Part shown: one piece after another, positions 39,077-44,450 of the stretch
Numbering within the stretch: position 1 is the stretch's first letter
Layout: each line of letters begins with the position of its first letter
Source: Carboxylicivirga marina
GTDB lineage: Bacteria > Bacteroidota > Bacteroidia > Bacteroidales > Marinilabiliaceae
DNA: 44,450 nt
Direction: 5' to 3'
Assembly: GCF_016612505.1 (NCBI RefSeq)
Contig: NZ_JAENRR010000041.1
Coordinates: 1-44,450, forward strand
The notes under the pieces: generated by a model
What the model saw: the letters and a program-made list of their open reading frames with translations, nothing else
Database searches by the model: none
Told to the model about the DNA's origin: nothing
Position numbers and translations under genes: made by a program

Positions 39077-42058
39077 TCAATCATTGATAACAATGGCCGC
39101 TCTTTGCTTTTTCCCATCCATTAAAATAGTTAATGGATCTTCAAACTCAACATGACGAAAGTATTCAGTTTCGCGCACCAACTTTTGTGATTTTAACCTA
39201 TCTAGTTTTACAAATTGTTCGTCATTATTATGGTGAACACTAAAGTATCCCACATTCATGGATGTGACATTATGGAAGAAATGCGATCCCAGAGAAGCAT
39301 CTAGTGGAAAATCAGGTAAGCCCATTTCAACAATAACACGTGCATGTGATATTTGCGACCAAAATACCGGAATGCCCGTAAAACGATCGCGTGTACCCCA
39401 TCGTCCGGGACCAATCAGTACATATTCTTTGCCTTGCTCTTCGAAATACTTATTAATTTCGGCCATCTCGGCGCCCATCTCAGCAGTTTTGGTACGATCA
39501 AATACATCAATATTCATATACACCACATCTTTAATATGGTTTAATCGACCGTTACCCATACCTTTAATCGACTGCAATATCATTTTATCGGTATCCTCTG
39601 CCTCAAAGTCAATATTTACATTGTTTTCAACACGGATAAGCGGTTTGATTTGCAAAAGGTATAAAGTTGGCAGATTTCGACGCCCTGCCTCCAGATCAAC
39701 AGCAAACTCAATTTCAACAGGCGCACCCATTGCCTCTTTAAAGAAACGAAGCAACATATCCAGCGTTTGCGAAAGCGGAATATAGTCGTACTTAAGAATA
39801 TTTGAGTAGTTAACCACACGCGGCCCACGTTTTGAGAAGTCATTGGTCATTCGGTCGTAATTGTAATCATACACCGAAGCACAATGCTTCAGGTTTCCAT
39901 CTTCTTCGGCTTCTTTAATGCTTAGCTTAACAATGGCAGCATCTTCGCCCCCCTTTTCAAGGCAGAAATCATCTTTTTCTAAATCTAAGGCATAGAAATA
40001 GGTTTGTGAATCTTTTATCTGATCCTGTATGGAATTCAATTCCAGTTTTGGATGTTTAGGGCAGAAACGATAGGCTTTTTCTCCGCCAACCACATACTTA
40101 CCCAAACCAACTCCTAACACGGCAAAACCGTCCTCAGGCTTCATATAAGAAAATGGATAGTAGTTATATGACTGTGCCACACCACTAATATGAGGGTAAA
40201 AACGATCTCCGACCTTGCCACCAACAACCTCCTGAATAATAACGGCCATTTTCTCCTCCTCAATCTTATAATTTACCGCATCGAAATAAGCCTTGGCAGG
40301 ATCACTAAACATGGAGGCATAAACTAATTTGACAGCAGTACATAACTGTCGGAAACGCTCATTGACATCGGGGTGATTATTGGGCACCATGAATGTGGCA
40401 TAAACACCAGCAAAAGGCTGCAACAGACTATCTTCAAATAATCCGGAAGAACGCACGGCCAAAGGCTGATCCATGACCTCAACATATTGCATTAGCTTTT
40501 CATTCACCTCATCGCTTAGCTCCGATTTCAAGAACAACTCTTTAATCTCGTCATATTTCTTTTCAACGAAAGCCAAAGTATAGAGATTGTTCTTCTCAAT
40601 AAAATGGGTGAATTCACCAGCACCAATAATGGTTGTAACCGGAATACGAATATTAATATTATCGATGATGCGATCAAAGTTGATGTTCTCAATAAAATTA
40701 CTCAGGAAAGCCACACCACGACCTTTACCACCAAAGGATCCTTCGCCAATACGCACAATGTATCGACTACTCTTAACCATATCCTTATCAAACATCACAA
40801 CCTTGCCACGAAGACGCCTTAAACGCACATCTTCAAATACTTCAAGTATAGCTTGTCGGAGCTTTGTTGAACTTTCAAAGTCCTCAATCCGATATGGACG
40901 GAGGCGTTTAGCAATGGTTATCTCTCCCCTAGCCATCAGCCAGGTTGAAATACCATTACGGCGGGCATGATACAGTAACGATTCAGGTGTAACCTCTTCA
41001 ATACAATCAACAAACTCCTTCATATTACGTGCCACCGCCACTTTGGCGCCACGTGTATTCTTAAAAACAAAATTACCAAACCCGAGTTTTTGGTGGATGA
41101 AATTGTATATATCAAGTGATAAGCTATCGGAGTTTTTATCGATAAAATCAGAATTAACAGCTTCGGCACGCAGAGCATTAGCCGGATCTGATGATTGCAG
41201 CAAGGTTGGTATTATGGTTTTTGACTTTACATATTTAATCAACTCAACGCCAGCATCAACATCGTCGACACCATTGCGGGCATATTGCACATCTGAAATC
41301 ACACAAATGAGGTTGTCAAGGTATTTATCTACAATCTGAACGGCATCTTCATAATTACTTACCAGTAAAATTTTCGGACGCACACGCATCTTCATGATTT
41401 TATGCAACTGATCGCTCGATTCTTCGCTCAGAATCGCTTGCGTTTGGCGCATAATTATCGAGTACAACAATGGCAGATAACGGGTATAATACTTTTGTGA
41501 ATCTTCCACCAGGAGGATAACACGTACATCACCCACCTTTACATCGTTGGCCACATTCATTTTGTCCTCAACGTATTTAATCATCGCTAAAAAAACACGA
41601 GAATCACCATTCCAAACAAATACACGATCGATGTGCTCAATATTACCGCTCGCCTCGTCAAAGAACTTGAGATCGGCATTATTATTAACCATTAACAAAA
41701 TAGGCACATTGGGCTGCACTTCTTTTAAGCGAGCACTCATTTGCAAGGGTAACTGCTTATCAAGACCTGCCATAAGTATGATCATATCAAACTCACGCTC
41801 GGCCATTAATTCTTCAGCTTCGGCACAGGTGGCAACACTTGTAATACGGGGCGCTGTAAACAAATTCAACTGTAAGTACTCGCCAAATATCTTATCAAAA
41901 AAACGTCCTTCACGCACTATGCTATAGGCATCGTAATGATTGGCAATGAGTAAAACTTCCTTGACCTTAAAGGACATTAGCTCCTGAAAAATGTCACGAT
42001 CGGAACGCTTACGATTATATAGATTTGAAAGAGATAATTCGTTGATGTTGTTATTCAT
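39077..42058 (-). CDS. Receiver-like domains fused to PEP synthase/PPDK-type ATP-binding domain
   Basis: 993 residues, cytoplasmic. Residues about 33-170 and 175-325 are two alpha/beta domains resembling response-regulator receivers. The first has KEVLLIANHYDAYSIV; the second has VILLVEDSQKYYTR and a late VISDVQYARNGVDDVDAGVE with a candidate phospho-Asp. From about 430 to 830 is a PPDK_N-type ATP-grasp domain (RIGEGSFGGKGRGVAFLSNF, PLAVRSSGLFEDS, AVIIQEVVGG, VEIEFAVD...LYLLQIKPL). The swivelling phospho-His domain and PEP/pyruvate barrel of true PEP synthase are missing. A C-terminal region of about 160 residues (YVLIGPGRWGTRDRFTGIPV) is unassigned. It is usually annotated as PEP synthase, but that reaction cannot be completed by this protein alone. 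Confidence 0.75.
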   Translation of the reverse strand: MNNNINELSLSNLYNRKRSDRDIFQELMSFKVKEVLLIANHYDAYSIVREGRFFDKIFGEYLQLNLFTAPRITSVATCAEAEELMAEREFDMIILMAGLDKQLPLQMSARLKEVQPNVPILLMVNNNADLKFFDEASGNIEHIDRVFVWNGDSRVFLAMIKYVEDKMNVANDVKVGDVRVILLVEDSQKYYTRYLPLLYSIIMRQTQAILSEESSDQLHKIMKMRVRPKILLVSNYEDAVQIVDKYLDNLICVISDVQYARNGVDDVDAGVELIKYVKSKTIIPTLLQSSDPANALRAEAVNSDFIDKNSDSLSLDIYNFIHQKLGFGNFVFKNTRGAKVAVARNMKEFVDCIEEVTPESLLYHARRNGISTWLMARGEITIAKRLRPYRIEDFESSTKLRQAILEVFEDVRLRRLRGKVVMFDKDMVKSSRYIVRIGEGSFGGKGRGVAFLSNFIENINFDRIIDNINIRIPVTTIIGAGEFTHFIEKNNLYTLAFVEKKYDEIKELFLKSELSDEVNEKLMQYVEVMDQPLAVRSSGLFEDSLLQPFAGVYATFMVPNNHPDVNERFRQLCTAVKLVYASMFSDPAKAYFDAVNYKIEEEKMAVIIQEVVGGKVGDRFYPHISGVAQSYNYYPFSYMKPEDGFAVLGVGLGKYVVGGEKAYRFCPKHPKLELNSIQDQIKDSQTYFYALDLEKDDFCLEKGGEDAAIVKLSIKEAEEDGNLKHCASVYDYNYDRMTNDFSKRGPRVVNYSNILKYDYIPLSQTLDMLLRFFKEAMGAPVEIEFAVDLEAGRRNLPTLYLLQIKPLIRVENNVNIDFEAEDTDKMILQSIKGMGNGRLNHIKDVVYMNIDVFDRTKTAEMGAEMAEINKYFEEQGKEYVLIGPGRWGTRDRFTGIPVFWSQISHARVIVEMGLPDFPLDASLGSHFFHNVTSMNVGYFSVHHNNDEQFVKLDRLKSQKLVRETEYFRHVEFEDPLTILMDGKKQRAAIVIND

Positions 42059-42325
42059 CCTATAGATTTTAGACTGATAGAGCTTAGACTATTAGACAAC
42101 AAAGTACTGACCCTAAAGTTGAATTGAACAATAGCAGCAAAATAAGTGAAAAATGTTGGGATGAGAAGAAAAGAGGGATGATTTTGAGATTAAGAATGGC
42201 ATGCTATGTGACAGTTCGCTTGACCTTCTCTAATGATTAGGGCTTTGAGAAAGATGGAAACAAAACATGACTAACTTTAATTGTAAAGTTATTTGTATTT
42301 TTAAACACCAATTAAATTATAATGT

Positions 42326-43564
42326 ATGAGCCACTTCATTACTGATATTCAAATCAACAAGATATTCCATTTAGAGAATATTCATATACCTATTGACAAA
42401 AAGGAGAAAAAACATCTAATAATTACGGGTAAAAATGGAAGTGGAAAAACGTCTTTACTTATTTCACTTAAAGAATTATTGAGCAGAATAATAAACGATT
42501 CTACGCTACAATTTTTACGATATGGAGAATTCTTAGATTCCTCCAAGATTAGACTAGAACAATTAATCAATCAAAATGCTCCTCATACAGCTATACACCA
42601 ACAAGAACAAAACTTCAAATACCATAACGAACAATTTCAAAATACCTTTGGAAAGGTAAACATTAATTTTACTCATATTATTGAAATATCTAAACTAGTT
42701 CATGCTAATAATTTCGTCATGGCCATATATGAAGCCAATCGAAAGACATTAATGAACAAACCCCCTAACCCTGAGAAACCGAACCTAAAAACACTCTACC
42801 AGATACAAGACAACACTCAACAGGAATTCCTAAAATTCTTAGTTGACCTAAAAGTTCAAGAAGCTTTAGCTCGTAATGAGAATGACGAAAAGTATGCCGA
42901 TGAAATAAGAGTCTGGTTCGATAACTTTACAAACCTTTTAAAAGATATATTTGGCAACAGCAATGTTCAATTGGAGTTTAATTTTAAAGACTACTCCTTT
43001 TCTATAATTGAAAACAACAAGTGCTTTGGCTTTAATGAATTATCTGATGGCTACTCGGCAATTATTGATATTGTAGCCGATTTGATACTAAAAATGCAAT
43101 CACCCGATAATATTACCCGTGCTTTTCAAAAAGAGGGTATTGTGTTAATTGACGAAATAGAAACCCACCTTCATTTAGAATTGCAAAAAACCATTCTTCC
43201 ATTTTTAACAAAGGTATTCCCTAATATTCAATTTATTGTTACCACCCACTCGCCATTTGTACTAAGTTCTATTGACAATGCTGTGGCCTATGATTTAGAA
43301 AAACAAGAAAGTTTGGACGACTTGAGTACATACTCATATGAAGCATTGGCAGAAGGTTACTTTAATGTTAGCAGCGAATCATCTCACCTTGACTGCAAGC
43401 TGAAACGATTTGAAGAATTACTCGATTTGGTAGAACGAGATATGGCTGAAACAAAAGAACTTAAAAATCTTGATGAAGAACTTGGCCAGCTGGATAAGAA
43501 TTTAACTCCTGAGAATATATTAGAACAGTACCTTCTATTAAAAGTAAAATACCCTATCAAATAA
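42326..43564 (+). CDS. ABC/SMC-like AAA ATPase, Septu PtuA-like
   Basis: 412 residues, soluble. Walker A GKNGSGKTS is at 35-43, an inserted helical coiled-coil region lies at about 50-230, the ABC signature-like NELSDGYSAI at about 237-246, Walker B IVLIDEIETHLHLELQ at about 273-288, and the H-loop VTTHSPFVLSS near 308-318. This is the OLD/RecF-type arrangement used by PtuA of the Septu anti-phage system. The HNH nuclease gene starts 6 bases after its stop, as in ptuAB. Assignment rests on architecture and pairing; a DNA-repair or other RecF-like ATPase is the alternative. The gene is visibly more AT-rich than the core genes, consistent with transfer. Confidence 0.75.
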   Translation: MSHFITDIQINKIFHLENIHIPIDKKEKKHLIITGKNGSGKTSLLISLKELLSRIINDSTLQFLRYGEFLDSSKIRLEQLINQNAPHTAIHQQEQNFKYHNEQFQNTFGKVNINFTHIIEISKLVHANNFVMAIYEANRKTLMNKPPNPEKPNLKTLYQIQDNTQQEFLKFLVDLKVQEALARNENDEKYADEIRVWFDNFTNLLKDIFGNSNVQLEFNFKDYSFSIIENNKCFGFNELSDGYSAIIDIVADLILKMQSPDNITRAFQKEGIVLIDEIETHLHLELQKTILPFLTKVFPNIQFIVTTHSPFVLSSIDNAVAYDLEKQESLDDLSTYSYEALAEGYFNVSSESSHLDCKLKRFEELLDLVERDMAETKELKNLDEELGQLDKNLTPENILEQYLLLKVKYPIK

Positions 43565-43570
43565 GCTTGT

Positions 43571-44215
43571 ATGATTAAAGTACGCAAGGCTAAAAAAGTT
43601 CCTGCCTCATTACACAAGAATCCATGCACAGCTTACGATGGACAAGATGTGCAGACTCAACTCATCACAGACCACGATGGCAAATGTTACCTTTGCGAGC
43701 AATTGACACACAAGAGCTTTGAAATTGAACACTTAAAACCAAAAGCAGAAGGCTATTACCCTGAGTTAAAATTCAAATGGAACAATTTGTTTCTTTCATG
43801 CCCCTACTGTAATGGAAGGAAGCACAATGCTCTACAGTTGCTTGACCCAACAACCAACCAGATAGAAGAAATAATAGAACAACGTATCGATTTTTCATCT
43901 CAAAAAGCAACATTTGAAAGTATCAATACCGATAAGCAAACAGTGGACACCATTACTCTGCTAAAGAAACTCCATAATGGTAAAAATGAAATTCGCGATG
44001 TCAGAACCAACGAGTTCTATAAAGATATTAAGCAACAAATTAAAGGCTTTCTAAAACTATTGGTTGATTATCAATGCAATCCGTCAACCGAAAACAAACA
44101 AGCCGTCATTGACAGTCTGCATATTAGCAAAGAATTTTTGGGTTTTAAATACTGGATAATAAAGGACTCTGATTCACTAAATGCAACTTTCAGTTCTTAC
44201 CTTAAATGGAATTAA
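43571..44215 (+). CDS. HNH endonuclease, Septu PtuB-like (TIGR02646-like)
   Basis: 214 residues. The N-terminus MIKVRKAKKVPASLHKN is typical of the PtuB/TIGR02646 group. The HNH centre with its structural zinc is complete: Cys39-x2-Cys42 (CYLCEQ), IEHLKPK with His54, then WNNLFLSCPYCNGRKH with Asn72, Cys77, Cys80, Asn81 and His85. The C-terminal half is helical (DTITLLKKLHNGKNEIRDVR) and may bind the ATPase. It is predicted to cut phage or host nucleic acid when the ATPase licenses it. The start is ATG at 43571, 6 bases after the upstream stop, so the two genes are co-transcribed. Confidence 0.8.
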   Translation: MIKVRKAKKVPASLHKNPCTAYDGQDVQTQLITDHDGKCYLCEQLTHKSFEIEHLKPKAEGYYPELKFKWNNLFLSCPYCNGRKHNALQLLDPTTNQIEEIIEQRIDFSSQKATFESINTDKQTVDTITLLKKLHNGKNEIRDVRTNEFYKDIKQQIKGFLKLLVDYQCNPSTENKQAVIDSLHISKEFLGFKYWIIKDSDSLNATFSSYLKWN

Positions 44216-44450
44216 GCATTTGACAAACCCAATGTTTATTTCTATGACATCCAATCAGATATCTACGACATCAAAAAAGATGTGTATCCATATAAAATTA
44301 GATGAACACCTATATCAAAATTGATAATAACAGTATCAATAAGGATGTGTATTTATATGAATTTTGATATCATGAAGTTGTTTAAAGTCCTAAAATAGAA
44401 TAAATTAAGCGGTTTAATTAATTGATATTCTGATGATTAAATGGTATATT
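44216..44450. other. AT-rich tail with nested inverted repeats
   Basis: No gene is seen. ATATCAAAATT (44312-44322) is matched by its perfect reverse complement at 44360-44370. Inside lies a 7-bp hairpin ATTGATA/TATCAAT (44320-44326 with 44334-44340). A diverged direct repeat GATGTGTAT (44279-44287, 44344-44352) is also present. It may be a terminator, an operator for a gene to the right, or a recombination border. Confidence 0.5.

Follow-up and report, generated by a model that had tools for sequence, protein, structure and literature searches.

Introduction

Septu systems pair an ATPase, PtuA, with an HNH nuclease, PtuB, and the original system is said to come from Bacillus. In Septu type I, of which Escherichia coli ATCC 25922 and EcB88 provide examples, ptuA is followed directly by ptuB on the same strand and is not preceded by a reverse transcriptase (RT) gene, and PtuA and PtuB likewise serve as the effectors of type I-A retrons (Ec78/Eco7 and Ec83/Eco4; Septu type II in PADLOC). 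Here, such a pair is described from Carboxylicivirga marina, close to the right end of a stretch of 44,450 bases (the window), which is the entire contig C142 of a genome assembled as 206 contigs totalling 5.65 Mb. The pair very probably forms a canonical type I Septu anti-phage system, in which PtuA would hold the nuclease PtuB in check.

Sections of PMC8565338 place Septu type I among three systems found in more phyla than the 26 of Hma, and give 1,449 RT-preceded Septu, or 7.6% of all the Septu found by the PADLOC authors. With regard to function, it is stated in parts of PMC13096335 that E. coli Septu EcB88 requires both its ATPase and its nuclease residues, and that infection leads to cutting of tRNA-Tyr in the variable loop, while depletion of tRNA-Tyr by the PtuAB of retron-Eco7 is described in a portion of PMC11555353.

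Identity of the ptuAB pair

The stop of ptuA and the start of ptuB are separated by 6 bases, and both frames are intact (Table 1). Amongst PADLOC models, the best for PtuA was PtuA1 (PDLC00268; 386.7 bits, E 4.3e-116), which aligned residues 1-396 of the protein with positions 1-391 of a model of 411, and the best for PtuB was PtuB1 (PDLC00323; 215.6 bits, E 1.5e-64), with residues 1-214 on positions 1-211 of 215. Pfam models AAA_21, AAA_15 and HNH matched the proteins of the pair above their cut-offs (HNH, PF01844, on PtuB at 31.5 bits against 21.4). A scan of genome contigs with a PtuA alignment confirmed at least 385 relatives, the best 80 of which were kept, and a PtuB frame was present directly next to PtuA in 76 of these 80 fetched loci, partial frames counted, as well as in the window. 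The exceptions are L136, which stops one base past ptuA, L163, L170 and L177 (a PtuA fragment only). The 80 loci are not all independent, since they include near copies (L110/L115, L147/L148, L156/L157 and L166/L176), and since at least two of them, L167 and L114, seem to coincide with members of the query alignment. The E-values to near full-length profiles, together with the pairing of the two frames, exclude a chance match. The locus also differs from PARIS (AriA-AriB) in having a PtuB-family HNH nuclease as the partner, AriB being another kind of protein.

The original prediction, which was made from the sequence alone, had named best matches to RecF or other repair families, lacking an HNH partner in homologous loci, as one outcome that would tell against it. 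The corresponding explanation, that the ATPase is a repair protein of the RecF, RecN or SMC kind beside an unrelated HNH gene, is scarcely credible. PtuA does match SMC_N at 40.0 bits, exactly at the cut-off of 40, and RecF (TIGR00611) at 16.5 bits, but the cut-off of the latter is 172 bits, PADLOC PtuA scores 387 bits, the frame beside the ATPase is PtuB in nearly all of the related loci, and the pair is not core in the genus, as detailed below.

The modelled fold of the ATPase is that of PtuA: Foldseek listed 50 matches to the model, all from PtuA-containing structures, with the highest structural similarity being to retron PtuA. Relative to retron PtuA, the window protein is without the N-terminal 42-61 residues, residue 1 of the model falling on chain residue 43, 59 or 62. 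It is 20-21% identical to the PtuA chains of E. coli Septu, and is shorter than the PtuA of E. coli Septu type I (412 versus 465 amino acids). In the original prediction, the ATPase had been called short and a minimal or divergent subtype had been suggested. That suggestion is not supported, because the median length over the 81 PtuA frames is 411 residues (5-95% range, 370-435), so that the protein is ordinary for its clade, and because the PADLOC models are matched near end to end. In a tree of 80 rows, from which the L177 fragment was left out, the window falls in a group of 22 rows with full support, made up of 19 Bacteroidota, 1 Bacillota and 2 without group (window included); it thus belongs, in contrast to E. 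coli Septu type I, to a mostly Bacteroidota set. Its nearest rows are from Marinifilaceae, Mucilaginibacter, Paludibacter, Pedobacter and Prolixibacteraceae, and the remaining rows of the tree are from Bacillota, Bacteroidota, Pseudomonadota and others.

Table 1. Features at the right end of the window (forward-strand positions)
Feature	Coordinates	Strand	Length	Remarks
ptuA	42326..43564	+	412 aa	ABC/AAA-type ATPase subunit of Septu
Walker A	42428..42451	+		GKNGSGKT, residues 35-42; K41 in 79/81 PtuA rows, gaps in 2
Walker B core	43145..43156	+		LIDE, residues 274-277; D276 and E277 in 81/81 PtuA rows
ptuB	43571..44215	+	214 aa	Cys4-HNH nuclease subunit of Septu
PPDK N-domain protein	39077..42058	-	993 aa	Left neighbour; PF01326, 129 bits; not part of Septu
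Spacer before ptuA	42059..42325		267 bases	Presumed promoter region; too short for an RT gene
Apparent end of ~0.9 kb insertion sequence	44374..44450		77 bases	Starts 158 bases after ptuB

Catalytic residues

Residue conservation in PtuA was counted over 81 rows, being the 80 fetched loci and the window. In addition to the Walker motifs (Table 1), the signature-like sequence LSDGY is present at residues 239-243, with G242 in all 81 rows and D241 in 57, and an H-loop, THS, is present at residues 307-309, with H308 in all 81. The open reading frames and motifs thus agree with the OLD/RecF-type ATPase that had been predicted, with intact Walker A, signature, Walker B and H-loop, followed six bases on by a nuclease. 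For PtuB, whose nuclease residues are C39, C42, E53-H54, N72, C77 and C80, 77 rows were counted, partial frames included, and rows lacking a residue have gaps unless otherwise stated. C39 and C42 are present in 71 rows, H54 in 70, N72 in 71 (with one K), and C77 and C80 in 72. The residue that would be chosen by eye as the third 'H' of HNH, H85, occupies a variable column (L, N, S, G and others), whereas N81 is constant in the 72 of 72 rows that have a letter there. The Cys4-HNH centre is therefore complete, as had been claimed, although N81, and not a histidine, stands as the third conserved residue.

Distribution and genomic context

Amongst 13 other genomes of the genus, searched genome-wide, a relative of PtuB was found in one (G001, 29% identity) and relatives of PtuA in two (G001, 39%; G002, 32%), and ptuAB is accessory in the genus. 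In the order, for which universal conservation as core genes had been the other outcome named as adverse, a PtuB relative at E 1e-15 was present in 10 of 295 genomes drawn (window's genome counted). No relative was found at E 1e-20 in 50,697 phage records, relatives were found in 2 of 72,556 plasmid records, and a literature search for Carboxylicivirga together with phage defense gave no match. Separately, G002 carries at L080:5876-7918 a more distant PtuA-like gene of 455 amino acids, followed by a 223-amino-acid gene whose start (CAYC) resembles by eye that of TIGR02646 nucleases; the latter was not flagged by the window PtuB query.

The PPDK-like gene to the left of the pair marks the edge of a variable interval. 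An orthologue with at least 77% identity is present in 12 of these 13 genomes, G004 being the exception; the window's genome has two further PPDK-like paralogues, 49% and 37% identical, arranged in tandem on its contig C110. An alignment of the window with the flanks of 6 of the 12 relatives showed that the first ~130-155 bases of the spacer are patchily common to them, with similarity fading 110-140 bases before ptuA. Clustering of the frames in the adjoining stretch did not find ptuAB beside the PPDK-like orthologue in the 12 genomes, the stretch read being short in G007 (~0.9 kb), G013 (3.0 kb) and G012 (6.2 kb). Nine of the 12 stretches extend to the his operon (his genes named by Pfam at one locus), and between the PPDK-like gene and this operon (L060-L071) there is anything from no gene (G010) to several, some of them common between species, making the interval up to hisB a candidate insertion hotspot. 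In the window's genome, hisB is on another contig, C122, with 0.8 kb separating it from the right-hand end of that contig, and the gene order inferred by synteny across C142 and C122 is PPDK-like gene, ptuAB, gap, hisB. The GC (guanine plus cytosine) content of ptuA is low (32.4% versus 38.9% for the window), but a neighbouring gene of 396 amino acids is equally low at 32.6%, and GC content alone is therefore no evidence of transfer.

A broken copy of the pair was encountered in G022, from another genus of the same family, in which ptuA residues 1-64 (75% identical) are joined directly to the C-terminal part of ptuB. This remnant (L074:675-1345, contig C144) lies beside a frame taken as hisB by inspection; the PPDK-like orthologue of G022 is on a different contig, C61, preceded by 6.2 kb of other genes. 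These data suggest that ptuAB occupied the same interval in more than one lineage and was lost in one, with limited weight being placed on G022 owing to its fragmented assembly and an estimated contamination of 7%. The loss of all but the two ends of the pair in G022, and the apparent insertion sequence that begins shortly after ptuB in the window, could be taken to indicate that the window, too, holds a decaying, non-functional Septu island. With both window frames whole and the catalytic residues kept, this is considered quite unlikely.

The right end of the contig

The contig stops 235 bases past ptuB. Its last 77 bases are the reverse complement of the start of another contig (C44:1-77). 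They also match, at 92% identity, a terminus of a ~0.9 kb element in G009 (L093:1501-2397) that contains a 172-amino-acid DDE transposase frame and repeats the same 16 bases, in inverted orientation, at its opposite terminus. A similar stretch (84% over ~30 bases) is present at the end of C122. Contig C142 most likely stops, therefore, inside an insertion sequence, which we take to be IS5-like. Since this apparent end follows ptuB, a third gene of the operon beyond the edge, which had been suggested as a possibility, is unlikely, the gap itself being unread. Clustering of neighbouring frames in the 80 loci and the window is in keeping with this, in that no constant third gene family was found and none stood at a fixed place in more than 3 of the 81 loci.

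Relation to retrons

The same PtuA and PtuB families occur in type I-A retrons, the best structural matches are to retron PtuA, and the region to the right of position 44450 is unseen. The pair could, then, be the effector half of such a retron (Septu type II), with its RT and noncoding RNA hidden from view where the contig breaks. This is deemed highly improbable, firstly because, as set out in a section of PMC8565338, the RT gene of Septu type II precedes ptuA. In the window, ptuA is preceded by the short spacer and then by the PPDK-like gene on the opposite strand, with no RT gene between them and none on the contig beside the pair, while the apparent insertion-sequence end lies on the other side. 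The genome has three RVT_1 places (L183, L184 and L185), all on other contigs (C140, C169 and C25); group II maturase domains are present in both of the genes tested, and the third place has an internal stop. A scan of the neighbour frames of the 80 loci and the window, made by RT motif and not by RT profile, returned five open reading frames, one of them a PtuA and none RT-like by eye. Among the PDB chains listed, moreover, those of retron PtuA have 542-552 amino acids, apart from one of 456, against 412 here. An Rfam scan of the window at gathering thresholds gave 0 matches, Rfam being a collection from which many retron RNAs are absent, and a scan of the window for tRNA genes gave nothing. 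The profiles, the structural comparison of PtuA, the gene pairing and the patchy distribution accordingly uphold the prediction of a stand-alone PtuA-PtuB module without an RT.

Neighbouring genes in related loci

Apart from PtuA and PtuB themselves, 9 loci shared an ABC-transporter-like group (at places -7 to -1) and 5 loci shared another group, whose place varied; further groups covered 3 loci each. One of these, a methyltransferase group, stands directly before ptuA in L107, L116 and L119, in which ptuAB lies between type III modification (mod) and restriction (res) genes; in L118, the genes beside ptuAB include a type III methyltransferase and a DrmD-like helicase. L116 additionally has a HEC-01A-like ATPase and a DrmD-like helicase. 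Defence neighbours were named in these four loci, picked since their neighbours clustered in the 80-locus set, and there ptuAB is in the company of known defence genes. The position between mod and res raises the possibility that the mostly Bacteroidota clade is a functional Septu subgroup that works with type III restriction-modification and has a target other than tRNA-Tyr. This reading as a whole is regarded as unlikely; if true, ptuAB may fire when restriction fails, for instance.

Discussion

By analogy with the studied relatives, PtuA would bind ATP via its ABC-type site and assemble a complex that keeps PtuB in check, some phage-caused signal would release or activate PtuB, and the activated nuclease would then cut nucleic acid, such that the infected cell stops making phage. 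The last of these steps, cutting of nucleic acid by PtuB with abortion of the infection, is well founded by analogy. For the target of the window PtuB, tRNA and DNA are about evenly likely, with a slight lean to tRNA.

Several observations weigh against a canonical type I Septu system that works in this manner. Assembly, activation, cleavage and defence are all carried over from relatives to which PtuA shows 20-25% identity in structural alignments, and targets differ among PtuABs: a part of PMC11555353 indicates that retron-Eco4 is, in its authors' view, likely not tRNA-targeting, and that the Septu of ATCC 25922 has been reported to act on nicked DNA. The NCBIfam retron-system models agree in direction with the PtuA and PtuB identities but score below their cut-offs. 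NF041760 (PtuA) reaches 123.3 bits against 500, and NF041761 (PtuB) 27.8 against 150. Similarly, of the profiles proposed in the original prediction, those of PADLOC gave strong matches but TIGR02646 reached 41.9 bits, under its cut-off of 52.15. The structural model of PtuB is poor (mean predicted local distance difference test score, pLDDT, of 58.8), and the identity of this protein is consequently drawn from its sequence. Finally, the left neighbours in the window's genome look like housekeeping genes and not like a defence island.

The wider lesson is small, and the locus is one more member of Septu type I, a kind already described and widespread. What it contributes is a clean Septu locus in a marine Bacteroidota genus, accessory in its distribution and with a broken copy by the his operon in a relative. 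In sequence, its clade stands well apart from those E. coli systems for which the target is known, and it would therefore be well suited to testing whether cleavage of tRNA is a general property of Septu.
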